The notes beneath the pieces were generated by a model. It saw only the letters and a list, made by a program, of their open reading frames with translations, was not told where the DNA came from and searched no databases. Below are positions 22,911 to 31,988 of a stretch of 64,000 nt of DNA, piece after piece. Positions within the stretch are counted from its first letter, which is position 1. Each line of letters begins with the position of its first letter. The translations under genes were made by a program, and so were the position numbers. This DNA is from Lysobacter antibioticus (GTDB taxonomy: Bacteria > Pseudomonadota > Gammaproteobacteria > Xanthomonadales > Xanthomonadaceae): NCBI RefSeq assembly GCF_001442535.1, contig NZ_CP013141.1, positions 2,563,528 through 2,627,527 on the forward strand. Reading direction: 5' to 3'.

Positions 22911-24046
22911 TATGAAGACTTATTCTTTTCCGATTTACTTTTTACCAAGTTATTCCTCATGCGTTCCTGCCGCACAGGTATCGGCCGCGTCGACCCGATG
23001 CGTGTCGTAGCGACTTGCGCGCATGCCCAACGCGATGCCGGGCGCGCAGGCTCACACCGGCGCGGCGCGATCGCCCGCCAGCACGCAGCGCAGCTGCACG
23101 GCCGCCAGCGCGCCCAACGGCTTGGCGCCGCCGATGCCACCGATGTCATGCAAGAACGGCGCGACGGCGAAGCGAATGAACATGCTGAATCGATCGGCGA
23201 CATCGGAAAGCGGCTTTCAAACTTTCCACAAAACTATCGATGCAGACGATGAAACTCGTTCGCCGAAACCGATCGAGTTCACGCTCTTCTACTTTGTGTC
23301 ATTTGTCACTAGCCGAGCGAATCCGATTGCTGTCGAGATTTCCATCTGCGATGCAATTACCCTTGTTTCAAGGGATATTTATCGTCTTCACGCGATCGTT
23401 CATTCGATTCTGAAAGCGTCATTGCGATCACAGACCGGTAACGAAACAGATTGATACTCAGCTTGCCCTGCACGATTCCCAATGCTTATCACACAATAAA
23501 TCCATGCATCAGGCTTAAATAGGTCGGCACGATTCCGAAGCAGCCACACCCTCGGAAGATGCGCAGTAGTCAGCCTGAAGTCCGGCTCACGATGTGCAAG
23601 CCTGTCTCTCGATGTTCGCTTGAACCAAAGCTCGCGGACAGGGTCGATTCCTTGCGGCGACTCGCAAGGAACCGCGCCCGGCAGATTGCACGAACGAGCG
23701 GGAACTCAACCTGGATCACGCCGGTCCCGCATTGCGGGCAGGCCGCGCCCATCACTCGACCCATAAAAACCAGTGGGCGCGCGGATGGTGATCGGCAGGG
23801 AGCGTAGCGGCTGGCGTTACGGACGCGTCGACGGCATGACGGACCACAGGACATACGCCGAAGTCGCCCAGCAGTGACCTGCCTCGGCCCCGCTGCGTTA
23901 CGGCGGACCGAGGCTGCGAACGGCCCGATCCTGGCAACGAGGGTCTCCTTGCTGCCTGGAACCCTGCGAACCGCATTATCGAGGAAGTCCAACCTATTCG
24001 TTCCGGAAAGATTCGGAATTGCTGCCCTTCTACAAGGATGTCCCCC
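22911..24046. other. AT-richer 1.1-kb spacer before the PAS-LuxR gene
   Basis: No open frame here has family features or a ribosome site. The stretch 23200-23540 is much lower in GC than the rest of the window. It may hold the regulator promoter and upstream control sequence, or be decayed or transferred DNA. I see no transposase remnant, terminal repeat or tRNA. Confidence 0.4.
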
Positions 24047-24829
24047 ATGGCAATCGCAATCAGTTCGGCGCTTTCTTCCATGATCGAGCAAATGCCCGGA
24101 CCTTGCGCCTGCAAGGACCAGGATTCGAAATTCCTCTACGCCAACACCGAGTTCAAAGCCCTGGTCGGCCTGGAACCCGACGAGGACGTGGACGGGCTTT
24201 CGGATTTCGACCTGCCCTGCGAAGTCGCTTCGCACGTCAAGACCTTTCGCGAACAGGACAAGTACGTGATGGAGCGGCAGATCTCCATCACCACCTTGAA
24301 CGTGCACCGCTTCAAGTGCGCGAAATGGCGAGCGTTCTTGATCGTCAAGAAGCCCTTCTTCGATCAGGAGACCAACATCCGCGGCGTGCTGTTCCACGGT
24401 ACCGACATCACCGCGATCAACGCCGGCGCGCTCGGCTCCTATTTCGGCAACATCGGTCCGCACCAGGCCTCGATCAGCAACCTGCCGCAATCGGGGCAGG
24501 CCCATGCCGATTCGGACGCCGACATCGACATGACCCGCCGCGAGTACGAAGTGTTGTTCTTCCTGCTGCGCGGCGGCACCTCCAAGCGCATCGCCGAGTT
24601 GCTGTCGATCTCCTCGCGCACGGTCGAGCAATACATCGACGTGCTGAAGGACAAGTTCGAGGTACTGACCAAGCCCGACCTGATCGAAAAAGCCATCTGC
24701 AAGGGCTATCTGTACGTCGTCCCCGACACTTTGTTCATGAAGTGCTCGTCGAAGATCATCTTCCAGGGCACGCCGCCGCTGTCGCTGATGCAGCCTTCTA
24801 ACGCTCCGTCTTACTTGCCCACGAACTGA
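24047..24829 (+). CDS. PAS domain LuxR-family transcriptional regulator
   Basis: 260 residues. A PAS-type sensor at about 10-125 (MPGPCACKDQDSKFLYANTEF at the start, GVLFHGTDITAIN at the end) precedes a LuxR/GerE helix-turn-helix at about 160-215 (MTRREYEVLFFLLRGGTSKR, then IAELLSISSRTVEQYIDVLK). It lacks the acyl-homoserine-lactone domain and has no receiver domain, so it probably senses a small molecule, redox state or partner directly. Start ATG 24047 is preferred over ATG 24038 because the latter overlaps the AAGGA ribosome site. It lies right after the phenazine tailoring genes and ahead of the CHAT operon, so it could control either. The nearest product cluster is the phenazine one. Confidence 0.88.
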   Translation: MAIAISSALSSMIEQMPGPCACKDQDSKFLYANTEFKALVGLEPDEDVDGLSDFDLPCEVASHVKTFREQDKYVMERQISITTLNVHRFKCAKWRAFLIVKKPFFDQETNIRGVLFHGTDITAINAGALGSYFGNIGPHQASISNLPQSGQAHADSDADIDMTRREYEVLFFLLRGGTSKRIAELLSISSRTVEQYIDVLKDKFEVLTKPDLIEKAICKGYLYVVPDTLFMKCSSKIIFQGTPPLSLMQPSNAPSYLPTN

Positions 24830-24870: not shown

Positions 24871-25216
24871 GCCGCGGCCGGAACCGGTTCGACTGGAGCC
24901 CCGTAAGCGACGCGCCTACTTGGCCATGCCGGAGTTCTGCATCGGACCGTGGCTCGACAGCGAGGCCAGCGCGGTGGGCCGGCTCCGAACGAATCCCCGC
25001 CCTTCGCCAGCGTGCAGCGGCTGCCGAGGCATGCCCTGCACGGCATCGACATGCCGCCCCCTTGCACCCCCGCCGACCACCGAAGCGGCGCCCGCGGCAA
25101 GGCCTGCCGCCCCATCCGCAATGGCCGCCCCGCAAGGCTTATGCCGTTTCTTTGATCAGGCTAGGGAGTCAGCCCGGCGCCGTCGGCGCCGCTCCCTTCG
25201 AGAAGGGGGACTCGGA
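24871..25216 (+). promoter_or_regulatory. Upstream region and structured leader of the CHAT-protease operon
   Basis: No gene is supported between the PAS-LuxR hairpin and the first operon gene. About 20 bases ahead of the start codon lies a two-part hairpin: CGGCGCC/GGCGCCG (25175-25181, 25185-25191) inside GGGAG/CTCCC (25164-25168, 25192-25196). The ribosome site AAGGGGGA (25203-25210) follows at once. Promoter elements were not recognised with confidence. Confidence 0.4.
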
Positions 25217-26536
25217 ATGCCATCGTTGATACCGGTTGGACCGTACAAGCAATTCACCACCGCCGAAGGCACGGTGTTTCCTTACTACATCGTGCCGTTC
25301 GACAAGAACGGCACCTGCGAAGGGCCGCTGACGCGTCAGCATGTGCTCGACCATCTGGATGGGCACAGCGACATCTTCCTGTTCTCACACGGCTGGAACA
25401 ACGACTGGAAAGCCGCCAGCGAACGCTATGCGAGCTTCGTCAACGGCTATATCGAACAGCGCCGGCAACTCGGCCTGCCCGCTCCGGCCGGCTACCGGCC
25501 GCTGTTGATCGGCATCTTCTGGCCCAGCCAGGCCTTGTCGTGGTTCGACAGCGAAACCGGGCCTGGCTTCGCCGGCGCCGGCGACGATGTCGAAAGCGGC
25601 CGTCAACAGATGGCCGACATCGCCGCGATGCTGGCGCCCGAACAGCGCGAACGCTTCCACGCGCTCAGCCAGACTCCGGGCTTGTCCGAAGCGCAATCGC
25701 GCGAACTCGCCGATCTGCTGGCAAGCGTGCTGTCGCCCGACGACGAGGACCACGATGCCGCACCCGCCTCCGCCGACGACCTGCTCGCTGCAGCCGCCTC
25801 CTTGACCGAGGCGCCGCCGGATTTCGACGACGTCGGCGCCGTGGCGACGCCGGGCGCCGGCGGCCCGGCCGCCGCCGGCGGCATCGGCGATGCGCTGAAG
25901 AAACTCGACCCGCGCAACCTGATCAAGCCGTTCACGGTCTGGCAGATGAAGGACCGCTCCGGCAAGGTCGGCAGCCGCGGCGTATCGCAACTGCTGGCCG
26001 AGTTGCTGCGTCGTTCGCAGGCGCGCATCCACCTGCTCGGGCATTCCTTCGGTTGCAAGGTGGTGATGTCGGCCACCGCGTCGCTGCCGGACGGTCTGCG
26101 CAAGGTGCATTCGGCCCTGCTGTTGCAGCCGGCGATGTCGCAGTACGCCTTCGCCGCGCAGGTGCCGGAAACCGGCCGCACCGGCGGCTACCACCGCAAC
26201 CTGCAGCGCATCGAACGGCCGGTGGTCGCGACCTTCAGCGGACGCGACATCGCCCTGACCAAGACCTTCCACCTGGCCTTGCGGCGCGACCACGACCTCG
26301 GCGAGCAGCCGCTCGCGGCCGGCGACTCGCCGAGCAAGTACGCGGCCCTGGGCGGCTACGGCCCGCAGGATTCGGAGCAGACCCTGGTCGACATCAAGGA
26401 CCCGGCGAGCGCCTACGATTTCGGCCCCGGCGGCCGCATCGTCGGCGTACGCGGCACCCGCACCATCGGCGGCCACGGCGATATCAGCAACGCTTCGACC
26501 TGGTGGCTGGCGCACAACCTCGCCTCCAGCCGCTGA
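25217..26536 (+). CDS. Alpha/beta hydrolase of a CHAT-protease operon
   Basis: 439 residues. The alpha/beta hydrolase core is split. The first strand and oxyanion region read FLFSHGWNNDW (about 54-64), and the nucleophile elbow is LLGHSFGCK with Ser277. The segment between (about 112-235) is an insertion rich in Ala, Asp and Gly, probably flexible. The family resembles uncharacterised serine esterases of the DUF900 kind. There is no signal peptide, so it should act in the cytoplasm. A late His in GGHGDISN is the likely catalytic base. It is the first of four genes: 16 bases to the next, then two overlaps. Possible roles are lipase/esterase effector or processing of a small molecule. Nothing in the sequence decides. 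Confidence 0.82.
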   Translation: MPSLIPVGPYKQFTTAEGTVFPYYIVPFDKNGTCEGPLTRQHVLDHLDGHSDIFLFSHGWNNDWKAASERYASFVNGYIEQRRQLGLPAPAGYRPLLIGIFWPSQALSWFDSETGPGFAGAGDDVESGRQQMADIAAMLAPEQRERFHALSQTPGLSEAQSRELADLLASVLSPDDEDHDAAPASADDLLAAAASLTEAPPDFDDVGAVATPGAGGPAAAGGIGDALKKLDPRNLIKPFTVWQMKDRSGKVGSRGVSQLLAELLRRSQARIHLLGHSFGCKVVMSATASLPDGLRKVHSALLLQPAMSQYAFAAQVPETGRTGGYHRNLQRIERPVVATFSGRDIALTKTFHLALRRDHDLGEQPLAAGDSPSKYAALGGYGPQDSEQTLVDIKDPASAYDFGPGGRIVGVRGTRTIGGHGDISNASTWWLAHNLASSR

Positions 26537-26552
26537 GCGCCGGCACCGCACC

Positions 26553-28340
26553 ATGGCCGAACTGCTGAAGCGCGAGAACGATATCGTCACCCTGAAAATG
26601 GAGCTGACGAGGCCGCAACACGCACGCGCCACCCTGCAGTTCCAGGCCGGCGGCAGGCTGCAGAGCCTGCCGCTGTGGGAGGGCGGCATCAACGAATGGG
26701 GGCTGGCGCCGTCGATCGCCTCGGACCTGCGCACGCGGCCGGACGAATCGCAGTTCCATATTGCGCCACGCCTGCTGCCGAGCCTGCACACGGCCTGGCT
26801 GCAGCACGCCGAGCCCGGCCGCCCGCTGTGGATTCACCTGGCCAAGCCTTACGGCGCGCTGCGCTACCTGCCGTGGGAACGCCTGCTGCTCGACGCCTTG
26901 CAGACGCCGGTGCTGATGCTGCCGGATTTCATTTTCCCGCCGCCGCGCGAAAGCGCGACCATGCTGGATATCGCCGTCTGCGCCAGCGCTCCGCTCAACT
27001 GCGAGCACGCCCATATCCGCGACGGTCTGGTCGATGCGATCCAGGCGATCGTGTCCGGCATCGACCGGCCTGTGCGCCTGCACGTGTTCGCCGACGCCGA
27101 AATGGGCGAACCGGTGCGGCACCTGTCTCCGGGCTCGGCCGAGCTGATTCTGCACTCGCCCGCCGATGCCGAACGCTTCGTCGTCGAGGACCCGTCCTCG
27201 CGCCTGCTCGACAGCAGCGGCACCCTGCGCTCGCCCTGGCTGCTGTGGATGCGCCAGGCGCTCAAGCCCTACAGCACCGATGCGGTGCACTTCGTCTGTC
27301 ACGGCCATCTGTCCGGCACGTCCGGGGCGATGTTGCTGGCGCAGTCGCCGCTGGGCCGCACCGAGAATTATCTGGCCGGCCCGGTCGGCGCCTGCGAGCT
27401 CACCAGCTTCCTGACCCAGGTCGGCGCCTGGGCGACCGCGTTCTCGGCCTCGCGCGACAACCACAACCCAGTCGGCCTGCGCGCACTGGCCGACGAGATC
27501 GCGCAATCGCTGCCGGGGCCGATGCTGTTGTTCAATGCGGCCTACGATGCGCCGGCGGCATTGGCGCAGAGCTATCGCTTCATCCACGCGCAGTCGGCGC
27601 AACCGCCGCCGCGCTCGCGCGCCGTTTATCTGTATTGCCAGCCCTATCTGGTCTCGCCCACGCGCGGCGCCTCCGACGGCGGCGAATTGTCCGAGCAAGT
27701 GCGCAGCCATATCGAACTGTATTCGCGCAACGACACCCAGCGCGACTCGGCCTTGAAGTCGCTGCCGCTGTCGGCCGCCGCGTCCGCGACGCGCAGCCCC
27801 TCCTTCGTCCAGGCCGCCAGCAAAAGCATCTCCGCGGTCACCGCCGCGACCGAGCGCCTGGCCGAACAAGTGCAAGTGCAATACCAGCAGGCGATGCGCG
27901 ACGAAGTCCTTCCCGAAGCCATCGTCCAGCGCGATCTGGACACGGCCATGGACACGATCGACCTGCTGCGCCAGGCGGTCGGGGATATCGAGCGGCGCCG
28001 CATCCACGGCGAGATCGAGCAGCGCCTGGTCGAGATCGAGCAGGATGCGCCGCCCACCGTCGAGGCCTTGGTCGAAGCGCCCATCGAAGGGCCGGCTGAC
28101 GCCGCTGTCGAACACCGTTTCGTTATCGGCTCCGATGTAACTGATTCCACGGAACAGGCACTGCTGCAGGCCCAGATCGAACGCATGGACCAGATCGCGG
28201 ACTACCGACTGCAGGTCGAACAATTGCCCGGCGAAGCGACCGAATCGCCATTGGATCGACGCATCCTCAAGGCCAAACTCGATCTCGAGCAGCGCAAGCT
28301 GCAATTGTCGGATTCCGACGAACTCGAGGATGCGCCATGA
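26553..28340 (+). CDS. CHAT-fold protein with catalytic Cys replaced (pseudoprotease)
   Basis: 595 residues. It has the CHAT landmarks LRYLPWERLLLD (about 103-114) and VHFVCHGHLSG (His250). Where CHAT proteases have the nucleophile (LSACxTG type), this protein reads TAFSASRDN, so the Cys position is Ser300. Alignment with its neighbour at 28337 supports this: NHNPVGLRALADE here lines up with GQGGNGLQSMANQ there. The C-terminal third (about 395-595) is charged, helical and likely coiled coil. The call is an inactive or altered CHAT partner, perhaps a scaffold or sensor. A serine nucleophile cannot be ruled out. No repeat sensor such as TPR is attached. Confidence 0.75.
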   Translation: MAELLKRENDIVTLKMELTRPQHARATLQFQAGGRLQSLPLWEGGINEWGLAPSIASDLRTRPDESQFHIAPRLLPSLHTAWLQHAEPGRPLWIHLAKPYGALRYLPWERLLLDALQTPVLMLPDFIFPPPRESATMLDIAVCASAPLNCEHAHIRDGLVDAIQAIVSGIDRPVRLHVFADAEMGEPVRHLSPGSAELILHSPADAERFVVEDPSSRLLDSSGTLRSPWLLWMRQALKPYSTDAVHFVCHGHLSGTSGAMLLAQSPLGRTENYLAGPVGACELTSFLTQVGAWATAFSASRDNHNPVGLRALADEIAQSLPGPMLLFNAAYDAPAALAQSYRFIHAQSAQPPPRSRAVYLYCQPYLVSPTRGASDGGELSEQVRSHIELYSRNDTQRDSALKSLPLSAAASATRSPSFVQAASKSISAVTAATERLAEQVQVQYQQAMRDEVLPEAIVQRDLDTAMDTIDLLRQAVGDIERRRIHGEIEQRLVEIEQDAPPTVEALVEAPIEGPADAAVEHRFVIGSDVTDSTEQALLQAQIERMDQIADYRLQVEQLPGEATESPLDRRILKAKLDLEQRKLQLSDSDELEDAP

Positions 28341-29743
28341 ACGAGCGCACCATCCTCTCGGTCGATATCCTCGACGACGACCTGATCGCCAGCGTGGTGC
28401 GCGCACCGTTCCCGGTCCACGGCGGCCGCGCCCTGGGCCGGGTGAAACTGCGCGCCGACCAGTTGCCGGGCCTGGACACGCAGACCGCGGTGCTTGCGCG
28501 CGGGCGCATGGTCCGCGATGCCCTGCGTCAGCACCAGGGCATCTCCGGCGTGCTCGACAGCCTCAGCCAGACCTTGCCGACCCAGGTCCGGCCCTTGTTC
28601 GTCATGCTCAATCCGTCCGAGGCCGAGCTGATCAACTGGGAGATGCTGTGCGACAGCAACGAGCAGTTCGTGGCCCTCGACCCGCGCTGGCCGATCGCCC
28701 GCATCATCGATCCGATCAACGCACCGAGCCGCCTGCCCGGCGAACTGACTACGCCGGTGCGGCTGATGGCGGTGATCTCCGCGCTCGGCATCGCCGATCA
28801 GCGCAAGGAGTGGGAACTGCTGCGCGATGCGGTGCTGGCGGCGCGCCAAACCGGCCTGCCGGTGCTGCTGAAGCTGTTGGTCGGCGACTCCGCCCTGCAC
28901 ACACGCATCCGCGACGAAATACAGCAGGACCCGGCAGGCCTGGCCGACATCGAAGTGGCGGCGATCGACGAGACTGCGGCGCGGCTGACCCAACGCATCC
29001 GCCAGTGGTCGCCGAACATCCTGCATTTCTTCTGCCACGGCCACGCCGGCAGCGCCGGGCAGTGGCTGGAACTGGCCACCGCCAACGATCACGTGCAATT
29101 CGCCGCGCACGACCCCGGCACCCTCGCCGGCTCGATCAACCTGCCCTCGCAGGACCTGGTGACCCTCGGCGCGTCGCTCGGCAATCCCTGGCTGATGGTG
29201 CTGAACTGCTGCTCCAGCGGACAAGGCGGCAACGGCCTGCAGTCGATGGCCAACCAGGTCGTGTCGGCCGGCTTTCCGGCGGTGGTCGCGATGATGGAAC
29301 CGGTCGAGGCCAACGACGCCTACGAGTTCACCCGCGCCTTCTATCCCGAGGCCCTAGCCGCGCTGCTGCGCGCGCGCGATGAACTCAAGCAGCGCGCCAG
29401 CACCACCCTGGAATGGACGCCGATCATGTTCCATGCGCGCAGCGCCATCTCTCAGCTCGGCAACCGCGACGCGCAGGCCTCGCCGGAGTGGTCGTTGCCG
29501 GTGCTGTACGTGCGCGGCGTCGAGGCCCAGGTCTTCATCCGTCCGCTCGGCATCGAGCAGGCCAAGTCCGACGAGTTCCGCATCCGCGCCGAAACCACGG
29601 CCTGGTGGCTGCGCACCGCCGGCCAACAGTTCAGCGAAGCCGAACGCATCGAAGCGCTGGAACGCACCCTGGCGGAAAAAGGCGTGCCCCGGGCGCTGTG
29701 GCCCTCCGCCGACGGGAGCTTCGAGCATGTCGGCGGACAATGA
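28337..29743 (+). CDS. CHAT-domain cysteine protease, catalytic pair intact
   Basis: 468 residues. The CHAT fold has INWEMLCD (about 99-106), His234 in ILHFFCHGHAGS and Cys292 in MVLNCCSSGQGG, the caspase-like His-Cys pair. The following SMANQVVSAGFPAVVAMMEPV is the usual strand-helix after the nucleophile. CHAT proteases of bacteria cleave partner proteins in immune and cell-death pathways. No sensor domain is fused here, so activation must come through partners. It overlaps the previous gene by four bases (ATGA) and the next by 17, so stoichiometric production is likely. Confidence 0.85.
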   Translation: MNERTILSVDILDDDLIASVVRAPFPVHGGRALGRVKLRADQLPGLDTQTAVLARGRMVRDALRQHQGISGVLDSLSQTLPTQVRPLFVMLNPSEAELINWEMLCDSNEQFVALDPRWPIARIIDPINAPSRLPGELTTPVRLMAVISALGIADQRKEWELLRDAVLAARQTGLPVLLKLLVGDSALHTRIRDEIQQDPAGLADIEVAAIDETAARLTQRIRQWSPNILHFFCHGHAGSAGQWLELATANDHVQFAAHDPGTLAGSINLPSQDLVTLGASLGNPWLMVLNCCSSGQGGNGLQSMANQVVSAGFPAVVAMMEPVEANDAYEFTRAFYPEALAALLRARDELKQRASTTLEWTPIMFHARSAISQLGNRDAQASPEWSLPVLYVRGVEAQVFIRPLGIEQAKSDEFRIRAETTAWWLRTAGQQFSEAERIEALERTLAEKGVPRALWPSADGSFEHVGGQ

Positions 29744-31124
29744 GCTGGCGTCGCTGCTGAGCAATGCCTGGTGCGGCGATGCCGTCGCCAGCGGCGTCTG
29801 CTCCGAACACGCGACGGCCTGGGCCTTGCGCGGCGCCATGTCGTCGCCGCGTCAACTCAGCGGCGCGGCGCAGGCGCTCGACCTGGCGCAATGGCAAGAC
29901 CCGCGCGTCGGCTGGGGCGTGGTCCTGCCCGATCGCGACGGCCTCGGCGATGCCGACAAGGCCGTCGCCGCCGACGCGCCCGCGGCGATACGCAGGCTGA
30001 TCGCCGCGCGCGGCAACGCACCGGTGTTCCGCTATCGCCCCGAGATCGCCAAGGACGGCCGACTGCAGCGCTATTACCCGCATCGCGGGCCGGCCAGCCT
30101 CCGCCTGTCCGGCACCCGCGGCACGGTCGGCGACGCCGCGGTGCCGCGTTATCTGTTGATCGTCGGCTCGCCCGAACAAATTCCCTGGCGCTTCCAGTAC
30201 CGCTTGCAGACCGACGCCTACGTCGGCCGTCTCGACCTCGACGAGGCCGGCCTGGAGCGCTACGTCGATGCGCTGCTCAACGATTGGCCGGGCCATCAGC
30301 GCGACGTCGACGCGCCGTTGTTGTGGGCGGTGGATCACGGCCACCCCGACATCACCTTCCTGATGCGCAAGACCATCGCCGAAACCCTGTTCAAGGCCTT
30401 CGATGCCGACGGTTTCCATCCGCTGCTGCTGACCGGGGCGCAAGGGCGCCTGGAGGATTTCTACGCCGGCCTCAAGCAACGCCAGCCGGCCTTCGTGCTG
30501 AGCTCCAGCCACGGCGCCACGTTTCCGTTGCACGACCTCATACAGCTCAAGGCGCAGTTGGGTGCGATGCTCGACGTCGACCACGCTTTGCTCGACATCG
30601 GCGCGCTGTTGCGGGCCTGGAACCCGACCGGCGCGATCTGGTACGCGCATGCCTGCTGCTCGGCCGGCGCCGACCGGCCTTCGACCTTCCAGGGCCTGGT
30701 CGACGAACAATCCAGCCTCGGCCGCATGCTCGCCGCGGTGGCCGGGATCGGCCCGTGCACCGCGCCGTTGCCGCGCGCCCTGCTCGGCAGCGAACGCCCG
30801 TTGGCGGCCTTCGTCGGCCATGTCGAGCCGACCTTCGACTGGACCTTGCGCGATCCCGACACCGGCCAGCGCATGACCGACGCGCTGATCGTCGACACCT
30901 TGTACACCGCCCTGCATTCGGCGCAGCGTCCGCCGATCGGCCTGGCCATGGACGGCTATTACGATGCCGTCGCCGGCCTGCTGCTCGACCACATCGAGGC
31001 CATCGAGGCCTTCAACAACCACGAACACGATGCCGAAACGCGGGCGCGCAAGGCCAAGTTGCTGGCGATGGATCGTCTTGCGATGGTGGTGCTGGGCGAC
31101 CCGACGGTGCGCTTGCCGGTCTGA
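29727..31124 (+). CDS. C25/gingipain-like caspase-fold protein
   Basis: 465 residues. RYLLIVGSPEQIPWRFQYRL and DAYVGRLD match the N-terminal strand pattern of C25-like peptidases. A His in FVLSSSHGAT (His262) and Cys in IWYAHACCSAGAD (Cys310 or Cys311) make a likely catalytic pair. The end MVVLGDPTVRLPV is a common C25/CHAT closing motif. No signal peptide is seen, unlike secreted gingipains, which points to an intracellular role. Start ATG 29727 lies inside the previous gene, with GGGAG upstream. Two further Cys near the N-terminus (16, 25) are notable. It could be a second protease or a substrate-binding partner of the CHAT pair. Confidence 0.75.
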   Translation: MSADNELASLLSNAWCGDAVASGVCSEHATAWALRGAMSSPRQLSGAAQALDLAQWQDPRVGWGVVLPDRDGLGDADKAVAADAPAAIRRLIAARGNAPVFRYRPEIAKDGRLQRYYPHRGPASLRLSGTRGTVGDAAVPRYLLIVGSPEQIPWRFQYRLQTDAYVGRLDLDEAGLERYVDALLNDWPGHQRDVDAPLLWAVDHGHPDITFLMRKTIAETLFKAFDADGFHPLLLTGAQGRLEDFYAGLKQRQPAFVLSSSHGATFPLHDLIQLKAQLGAMLDVDHALLDIGALLRAWNPTGAIWYAHACCSAGADRPSTFQGLVDEQSSLGRMLAAVAGIGPCTAPLPRALLGSERPLAAFVGHVEPTFDWTLRDPDTGQRMTDALIVDTLYTALHSAQRPPIGLAMDGYYDAVAGLLLDHIEAIEAFNNHEHDAETRARKAKLLAMDRLAMVVLGDPTVRLPV

Positions 31125-31151: not shown

Positions 31152-31988
31152 TCACTCCTTCGCAGCCGGCTTCGCCGCGCGGCGCGCATCGCCGAGCGTC
31201 GCATAGGCCTTGCCGTCGCTGGACGTCCACCCGCTCAGCGACAGCGAATCCGGCAAGGCCTGCGTCGGCGTTTGCACGCCGATGATGGCGGTGAAGCCCG
31301 AGCCGACCGGCGCCAACTCGGCCAAGCGCGCGGCGCGGTCCTCGGCGGTACTGAAGACGAAGGGCTGCTCGCAGCGCCCCGCCTCGGCCTCGGCATCGCT
31401 GCACTCGCCGGCCTGCGCTGCCGGTTCGGGCGGCGCTTCGCCGCCGGTGGTGGCGGTCTTGGCGACGTCGATGCGATAACGCCCCTCGCCCAGTGCCTTG
31501 ACCTGCACCCGGTATTTTTCCACGCCGTAGGCCCAGCTGTTTTCACCGACGGCGTCGATGTCGTGCCCGGGCAAGGGCAATTCGAAGTGCTCGCCGAGCA
31601 GCAGACCAAGCCACATCACCGGAGTGCTGGCGAGCAAGGCGCCGAGTTCGGTGGGGTTGGGCCCGGCTTGCGAGTCGTCGCTGGCTTTCGAGAAATGACG
31701 ACCGTTGCTCAACACGATCGATTCGAGGTGCTGGCGACCGCGTTGCACCGAAGCCTCGCTTTCGTTGCCCGGGTAACGCCGCCACCGGCCGCGATAGGCC
31801 TCATCCGGCGGCGAGTTCGAGCTCATCTCGACCGAAGCCAGGCACTGCGCCAACTGCAACAGGCGCCGGCAGTCGGCCTGCGCTTGCGCCGGCGACGCCT
31901 GCTTCGCGGCGACAGCCTCGGCCGCGTCGCTGCGCAGCGGCGCGAGCGCAAGCAGGCCGGCGAAGACGGTGATACGAATTGCACTCAT
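31152..31988 (-). CDS. Secreted protein of unknown function
   Basis: 278 residues. A signal peptide at about 1-22 (ITVFAGLLALAPLRSDA) is followed by a mature part with paired Cys in ADCRRLLQLAQCL and in ECSDAEAEAGRCEQ. There is a central hydrophobic stretch PVMWLGLLLGEHF. No family was recognised. It is convergent with the CHAT operon (27 bases apart) and divergent from the cardiolipin synthase. The convergent layout argues against membership in the CHAT operon. I considered a gasdermin, because those lie beside caspase-like proteases, but the export signal and motifs do not fit. Confidence 0.75.
   Translation of the reverse strand: MSAIRITVFAGLLALAPLRSDAAEAVAAKQASPAQAQADCRRLLQLAQCLASVEMSSNSPPDEAYRGRWRRYPGNESEASVQRGRQHLESIVLSNGRHFSKASDDSQAGPNPTELGALLASTPVMWLGLLLGEHFELPLPGHDIDAVGENSWAYGVEKYRVQVKALGEGRYRIDVAKTATTGGEAPPEPAAQAGECSDAEAEAGRCEQPFVFSTAEDRAARLAELAPVGSGFTAIIGVQTPTQALPDSLSLSGWTSSDGKAYATLGDARRAAKPAAKE

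Follow-up and report, generated by a model that had tools for sequence, protein, structure and literature searches.

A 64,000-nucleotide stretch of Lysobacter antibioticus DNA (the window) carries a compact operon of about 5.9 kb in which four genes, all on the forward strand between positions 25217 and 31124, form a real, strictly linked and conserved module. They encode a predicted alpha/beta hydrolase (gene 1), a CHAT-family paralogue predicted to be catalytically dead (gene 2), a predicted CHAT cysteine protease (gene 3) and a predicted C25-like cysteine protease of the gingipain family (gene 4). The cassette, apparently undescribed so far, probably serves self-destruction or defence; we favor this reading because in some relatives immune-type sensor genes share the operon. 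We class it as a variant of the protease/alpha/beta-hydrolase conflict modules and not as an entirely new kind of system.

The four-gene cassette and its linkage

The genome containing the window is a single contig of 5.77 Mb. Gene 1 (25217–26536, +; 439 residues) contains a GHSFG motif with Ser277 as the predicted nucleophile, together with Asp344, His420 and an HGW motif at residues 58–60. Gene 2 (26553–28340, +; 595 residues), the pseudo-CHAT, has a variable C-terminal extension. Gene 3 (28337–29743, +; 468 residues) carries the pair His234/Cys292, and gene 4 (29727–31124, +; 465 residues) carries His262 and Cys310–311. An earlier reading of the letters alone (the original prediction) had placed the genes on one strand with a 16-base gap between genes 1 and 2 and overlaps of 4 bases between genes 2 and 3 and of 17 bases between genes 3 and 4, and had reported GHSFG in gene 1, a CHAT fold without Cys in gene 2 and the His/Cys pairs of genes 3 and 4; the open reading frames confirm the layout, and the translations and alignments confirm the motifs. 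These reading frames are not a product of chance, because genes 2, 3 and 4 each have more than 100 database homologues and the same four-gene order recurs in several phyla. Gene 3 and its counterpart in Lysobacter antibioticus 13-6 encode products with 99% identity.

We scanned the CHAT alignment against one genome per species (84,980 species) and confirmed 18 loci. All four genes are present in the same order and on the same strand in 14 of them (L003, L004, L005, L007, L008, L010 and L012–L019), and three more (L006 and L009, which are two contigs of one assembly, and L011) contain as many cassette genes as their cut contigs hold. Two of the complete loci look damaged or misassembled: an in-frame stop interrupts gene 4 at L004, and at L019 gene 2 is split and gene 3 spans two frames. 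The three plasmid loci that we viewed, from Bradyrhizobium, Gemmobacter and Embleya, also carry the complete set, and the cassette occurs in Pseudomonadota, Actinomycetota, Gemmatimonadota and Chloroflexota. A scan that starts from the other protease gives the same picture: among 394 genomes of one actinomycete family (that of genome G444), the C25 profile has matches in nine, seven of which are full-length and all lie in the cassette (four known before, three new). The remaining two are a gene in the related operon of G645, described below, and a fragment in G658. The four genes thus stay together far beyond chance, as the original prediction would have it.

Gene 2 was found in 15 of the 16 genomes searched, solely at the cassette. 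Gene 4 homologues are likewise single and located at the cassette in the genomes searched. The exceptions are G446, with an additional, broken copy, and G451, which has relatives but no cassette. Extra, distant gene-1-type hydrolases are encoded elsewhere in G440, G444, G448 and G450. The flanks add no fifth common gene, as the next most widespread flanking groups are present in three loci at most.

Domain assignments and active sites

Gene 1 scores above the cut-off of two Pfam families, PF05990 DUF900 (24.9 bits; cut-off 20.5) and PF06821 (23.2 bits; cut-off 22). In the alignments made for this analysis, on which all counts of residue invariance below are based, all 19 cassette orthologues keep Ser277, Asp344, His420, His58 and Trp60. 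With its nucleophile-elbow Ser, acid and His conserved and the DUF900 score above cut-off, gene 1 is assigned by prediction to the alpha/beta hydrolases. Gene 3 matches PF12770 CHAT (E 7e-12), and His234 and Cys292 are invariant in 46/46 rows and in 15/15 of a wider set; by family match and catalytic residues, it is a predicted CHAT peptidase.

Gene 2 has no match in Pfam, PADLOC or NCBIfam and is connected to gene 3 by profile–profile alignment (hhalign probability 96.4, E 1.3e-9). The column aligned with Cys292 contains Pro in 22 rows, Leu in 15, Val in 11, Ser in two and Ala in one, with Cys in 0 of 51, and the catalytic His column contains His in 42 of 51 rows. Despite its homology to gene 3, gene 2 is therefore predicted not to be an active CHAT peptidase. 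Gene 4 has no direct Pfam match at E 0.1, so it does not hit the PF01364 model itself; its profile (A6) recognizes five relatives, from Sinorhizobium, Planktothrix, Nostoc, one planctomycete and one actinomycete, that match PF01364 Peptidase_C25 above cut-off. His262, Cys310 and Cys311 are invariant in 56/56 rows, and the gene 4 product is predicted to be C25-like through these intermediates, with its catalytic His and Cys kept. With Cys lost from gene 2 and invariance elsewhere, three of the proteins are predicted to have intact active sites, and the remaining one to be a protease copy that is dead throughout.

Searches of Protein Data Bank (PDB) sequences added little to these assignments. 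We judged a match of gene 3 to encapsulated ferritins (E 0.0036) to be chance, the PDB match of the CHAT profile (8tl0, E 0.18) was not useful, and the C25 profile had no PDB sequence match. Separately, we took a match of gene 4 to Cas3 (E 0.014) to be chance as well. We also considered that the C25 and CHAT proteins might be recent paralogues and rejected this, as there is no profile match between them.

Gene 1 has a variable, low-complexity insert (residues 113–230; 25553–25906, +) that follows the WPS strand, precedes the GHSFG elbow and is rich in Ala, Gly, Ser, Pro, Asp and Glu. Its length ranges from 121 to 187 residues across 19/19 orthologues, and its mean column conservation is 0.47, against 0.56 before it and 0.63 after it. 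The insert is a candidate gating loop or lid and a possible hallmark of a gated enzyme. It ends at a D/N-P-R motif (231–233) in which Pro-Arg is kept in 19/19 orthologues. C25 gingipains cleave after Arg or Lys, which makes this Pro-Arg end at most a candidate C25 site.

Related operons and known systems

Relatives of gene 1 and gene 4 recur together with other partners. On a Nostoc MS1 plasmid, the hydrolase and C25 genes are followed by a CHAT-nSTAND1-WD40 gene and a CHAT-nSTAND1 gene (domains as far as read). A Planktothrix plasmid has the order hydrolase, CHAT-nSTAND1, an IS1634 copy, a WD40 gene, an unknown gene and C25; the IS1634 copy (L071, 6679–8322) lies between the CHAT-nSTAND1 and WD40 genes, which may together represent a single gene cut in half. 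In the actinomycete G645 (L093, 5608–12030, −), CHAT-SIR2_2, nSTAND1, C25 and alpha/beta hydrolase genes lie on one strand, and on a Sinorhizobium terangae plasmid the hydrolase and C25 genes are beside divergent CHAT-AAA_16 and AAA_16 genes. A planctomycete locus (L053, 4251–8558, −) has a single 1,435-residue open reading frame with C25, Trypsin_2 and alpha/beta hydrolase domains in a row; this fusion is provisional, as the sequence becomes ambiguous at the hydrolase end and comes from a metagenome bin. These comparisons identify hydrolase plus protease as a recurrent predicted pair that occurs with immune-type switches. Because the hydrolase/C25 pair recurs with CHAT-nSTAND1-WD40 and with CHAT-SIR2/nSTAND1, an immune or cell-death role is better supported than it would be by motifs.

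The hydrolase also has a different protease partner. An S8 peptidase gene is directly upstream of a gene-1-type hydrolase at the four loci of this kind that we viewed (L073, L087, L088 and L056), in Rhizobium leguminosarum, Sinorhizobium medicae (by annotation), Rhodococcus oxybenzonivorans and Azohydromonas. These two-gene pairs are a candidate for a separate protease–hydrolase system.

Of the described systems, the VMAP (MoxR-vWA) ternary systems resemble the cassette in having a caspase-superfamily protease gene beside an alpha/beta hydrolase. According to the accessible part of Kaur et al. (2020; PMC7159879), the caspase domain of VMAP systems always has a neighboring alpha/beta-hydrolase gene, and that part of the text mentions neither CHAT nor C25. 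In G256, a C25 protein 42% identical to gene 4 is encoded beside a different alpha/beta hydrolase, which the gene-1 profile does not match, a caspase-VMAP-C protein and an AAA ATPase. The window cassette differs in its proteases, CHAT and C25, and in lacking genes for VMAP-C, MoxR and vWA. No VMAP-C protein was found anywhere in the window genome, and six of the 16 genomes searched have one elsewhere; MoxR and vWA have no Pfam match in the four proteins and no conserved fifth gene brings them in, the rest of the genome not having been searched for them.

The cyanobacterial CHAT-nSTAND1-WD40 (NLR-like) operons of Nostoc MS1 and Planktothrix share a gene-1-type hydrolase, a C25 gene and a CHAT domain with the cassette. 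In those operons CHAT is fused to a STAND NTPase, whereas the window has a separate CHAT protein accompanied by a Cys-less paralogue; genes 1–4 have no Pfam match to an NTPase or repeat domain, which sets the cassette apart from the NLR-like CHAT-STAND class. CHAT and nSTAND1 are reported in putative sensors of multicellular bacteria in the available text of PMC10907252. A third likeness is to the nuclease–protease and canu (caspase-nuclease) pairs, in which, according to the portion of Tuck et al. (2025; PMC12799240) available, pro-nucleases become active when their partner proteases excise gating insertions. Both cases present a mobile enzyme–protease partnership taken up by different immune systems, and a partner enzyme with a variable insert, as in gene 1; their partner is an MBL-fold nuclease, whereas here it is a predicted alpha/beta hydrolase.

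Residues 212–370 of gene 3, the CHAT part alone, match the PADLOC family SAVED_CHAT (E 4.3e-8), and the set as a whole corresponds to no PADLOC family. A CHAT-to-caspase cascade acts downstream of type III CRISPR. Gene 3 resembles SAVED-CHAT/CalpL of type III CRISPR, as presented in the accessible part of PMC11417357, in being a CHAT-family protein; it differs in having no SAVED domain (no second significant Pfam domain), and no CRISPR genes were noticed near the cassette. None of the four proteins matches a gasdermin in Pfam or PADLOC, and no recurring fifth gene could supply one. No description of the cassette was found in the open-access literature searched, a search that did not extend to subscription papers and supplements.

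The favored reading and its rivals

We give about an even chance to the reading that the cassette is one stripped-down conflict or programmed-death module, in which the CHAT/pseudo-CHAT pair would replace the STAND switch and trigger the C25/hydrolase pair. The active CHAT protein (gene 3) would be the initiator protease. Its dead paralogue (gene 2) would hold or scaffold it, filling the position that a STAND NTPase, frequently one carrying WD40 repeats, occupies in the related operons; such gating of gene 3 by gene 2 is plausible. On a trigger, the CHAT protease would act on the C25-like protease, the hydrolase or both. C25 and hydrolase would then work as a pair, with the hydrolase, most likely a lipase-like effector that is inactive until proteolysis, as the harmful end point. 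We infer these steps: which protein cleaves which, a hydrolase that starts as a pro-enzyme and attacks lipid, harm to the cell on activation, and phage as the trigger. The available text of Kaur et al. (2021; PMC8195603) counts alpha/beta hydrolases among the lipid-directed effectors of such conflict systems.

A more specific version, possible but doubtful in our estimate, is a minimal two-tier caspase-superfamily cascade, an ‘apoptosome without ATPase’ in which the gene 2 pseudo-protease would hold the CHAT initiator, which would in turn activate a C25 executioner and a pro-lipase. Animals offer a parallel, in which a pseudo-caspase regulates initiator and executioner caspases. If the favored reading is true, an alpha/beta-hydrolase/protease effector pair common to several sensor types would join the known nuclease/protease pairs, and the window would hold a free-standing form, where the switch function of the NTPase may have passed to a dead copy of a protease. 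The long-standing question of how the caspase relatives of prokaryotes come to be triggered could then be tested directly, in a compact 5.9-kb operon.

Several observations weigh against this reading or limit its support. The linkage has one exception, the eighteenth CHAT locus (L020), which encodes only a distant CHAT protein (28%) with none of the other three genes nearby. Pairwise distances of the four genes correlate (r 0.92–0.95 across 16 loci), which speaks for a single module, but the pattern can also arise from shared descent alone. The gene 1 profile has no significant PDB match (the best is triacylglycerol lipase 3tgl, E 0.089), so lipid as its substrate is a guess. At a Rhodococcus rhodochrous locus, the gene upstream of the gene-1-type hydrolase matches no family, and some hydrolases of this type, including three Streptomyces paralogues, have no protease identified beside them. 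CHAT/STAND genes adjoin the hydrolase–C25 pair in Nostoc and Planktothrix, and activation of the pair by them would be no more than a proposal there too. Nothing directly supports a role for phage, as gene 4 has no homologue in phage records or viral contigs. The cassette is rare and patchy, occurring in two of 20 genomes of the genus; in phylum-wide scans of 398 genomes, which score few candidates per genome and so yield lower bounds, the gene 4 profile matches at least two, one of them G256 and not a cassette, and the hydrolase profile at least one. This pattern fits conflict systems but would also fit other accessory functions. Finally, the flanks are not enriched in defence genes over the controls, with six PADLOC families among 85 flanking genes and 59 among 85 control genes of the same genomes (the 59 include one type I restriction locus), and we reject defence islands as the general context. 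On balance, the original prediction is borne out in part, in the linkage and in the intact CHAT and C25 active sites beside a Cys-less second CHAT (51/51), and its immune or death-related proteolytic cascade would still be a proposal; its statements that no sensor repeat or gasdermin is present and that the set fits no known system agree with the Pfam and PADLOC searches above, and the location in defence islands that it asked to be checked is not supported.

In one alternative, the cassette would carry out regulated proteolysis outside immunity, such as stress-controlled protein or lipid turnover or development in soil bacteria. This would suit flanks without defence-island enrichment, hosts that are largely free-living soil and water bacteria, and a window copy near a PAS-LuxR regulator found solely in the two cassette-bearing congeners. 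We nevertheless consider it unlikely, as patchiness within the genus combined with plasmid carriage is typical of conflict systems, and so are the nSTAND1, WD40, SIR2 and VMAP-C partners of the relatives.

A serious rival that retains an immune-type function is parallel rather than serial action of the two proteases. Here C25 would activate the hydrolase, and CHAT/pseudo-CHAT would be a separate effector or sensor with other targets. C25 plus hydrolase is the constant pair across contexts, the hydrolase of the two-gene pairs seems to be activated by S8, and both the S8–hydrolase loci and the C25–trypsin–hydrolase fusion occur without an adjoining CHAT gene. Within the cassette, however, both CHAT genes match the C25/hydrolase pair in conservation and linkage, and Nostoc and G645 have CHAT genes in the same operon as the pair; we regard parallel action as unlikely.

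Lysobacters are predators and C25 is the gingipain family, and a hydrolase with proteases would suit digestion, but export of a gingipain-like protease and a lipase for feeding or antagonism is very improbable given that none of the four proteins has a strongly hydrophobic stretch (maximum 19-residue hydropathy 0.95–1.36) or a start-proximal signal-like segment among its hydropathy maxima, and it would leave the dead CHAT unexplained.

With respect to origin, the GC fraction of the cassette is 0.683, ordinary for 5.9-kb windows (mean 0.667, standard deviation 0.015), and we reject a recent foreign origin by composition. E. coli, searched solely for near-identical DNA, has no match to the cassette. 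One cassette copy does have defence-like genes in its vicinity, that of the Bradyrhizobium plasmid (L058, 18401–42001), where DUF499, DUF1156, helicase and WYL genes and a PAD1/patatin pair are close by. The window genome encodes a second, distant CHAT protein (L002, 19–2214, at about 649 kb of the genome; 731 residues, PF12770 E 1.3e-5) with no other cassette genes adjoining, as far as seen.

Two neighbors of the window copy complete the picture. Upstream of the cassette is the PAS-LuxR-type regulator gene (24038–24829, +), with a GC fraction of 0.588 compared with 0.665 for the window. Its only strong orthologue in the genus is in the other cassette-bearing genome, and it was not shown by tblastn at loci from other genera, so we rejected it as a component. 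Just downstream is a convergent gene (31152–31988, −) that has no Pfam match and has related genes in five of 20 genomes of the genus.

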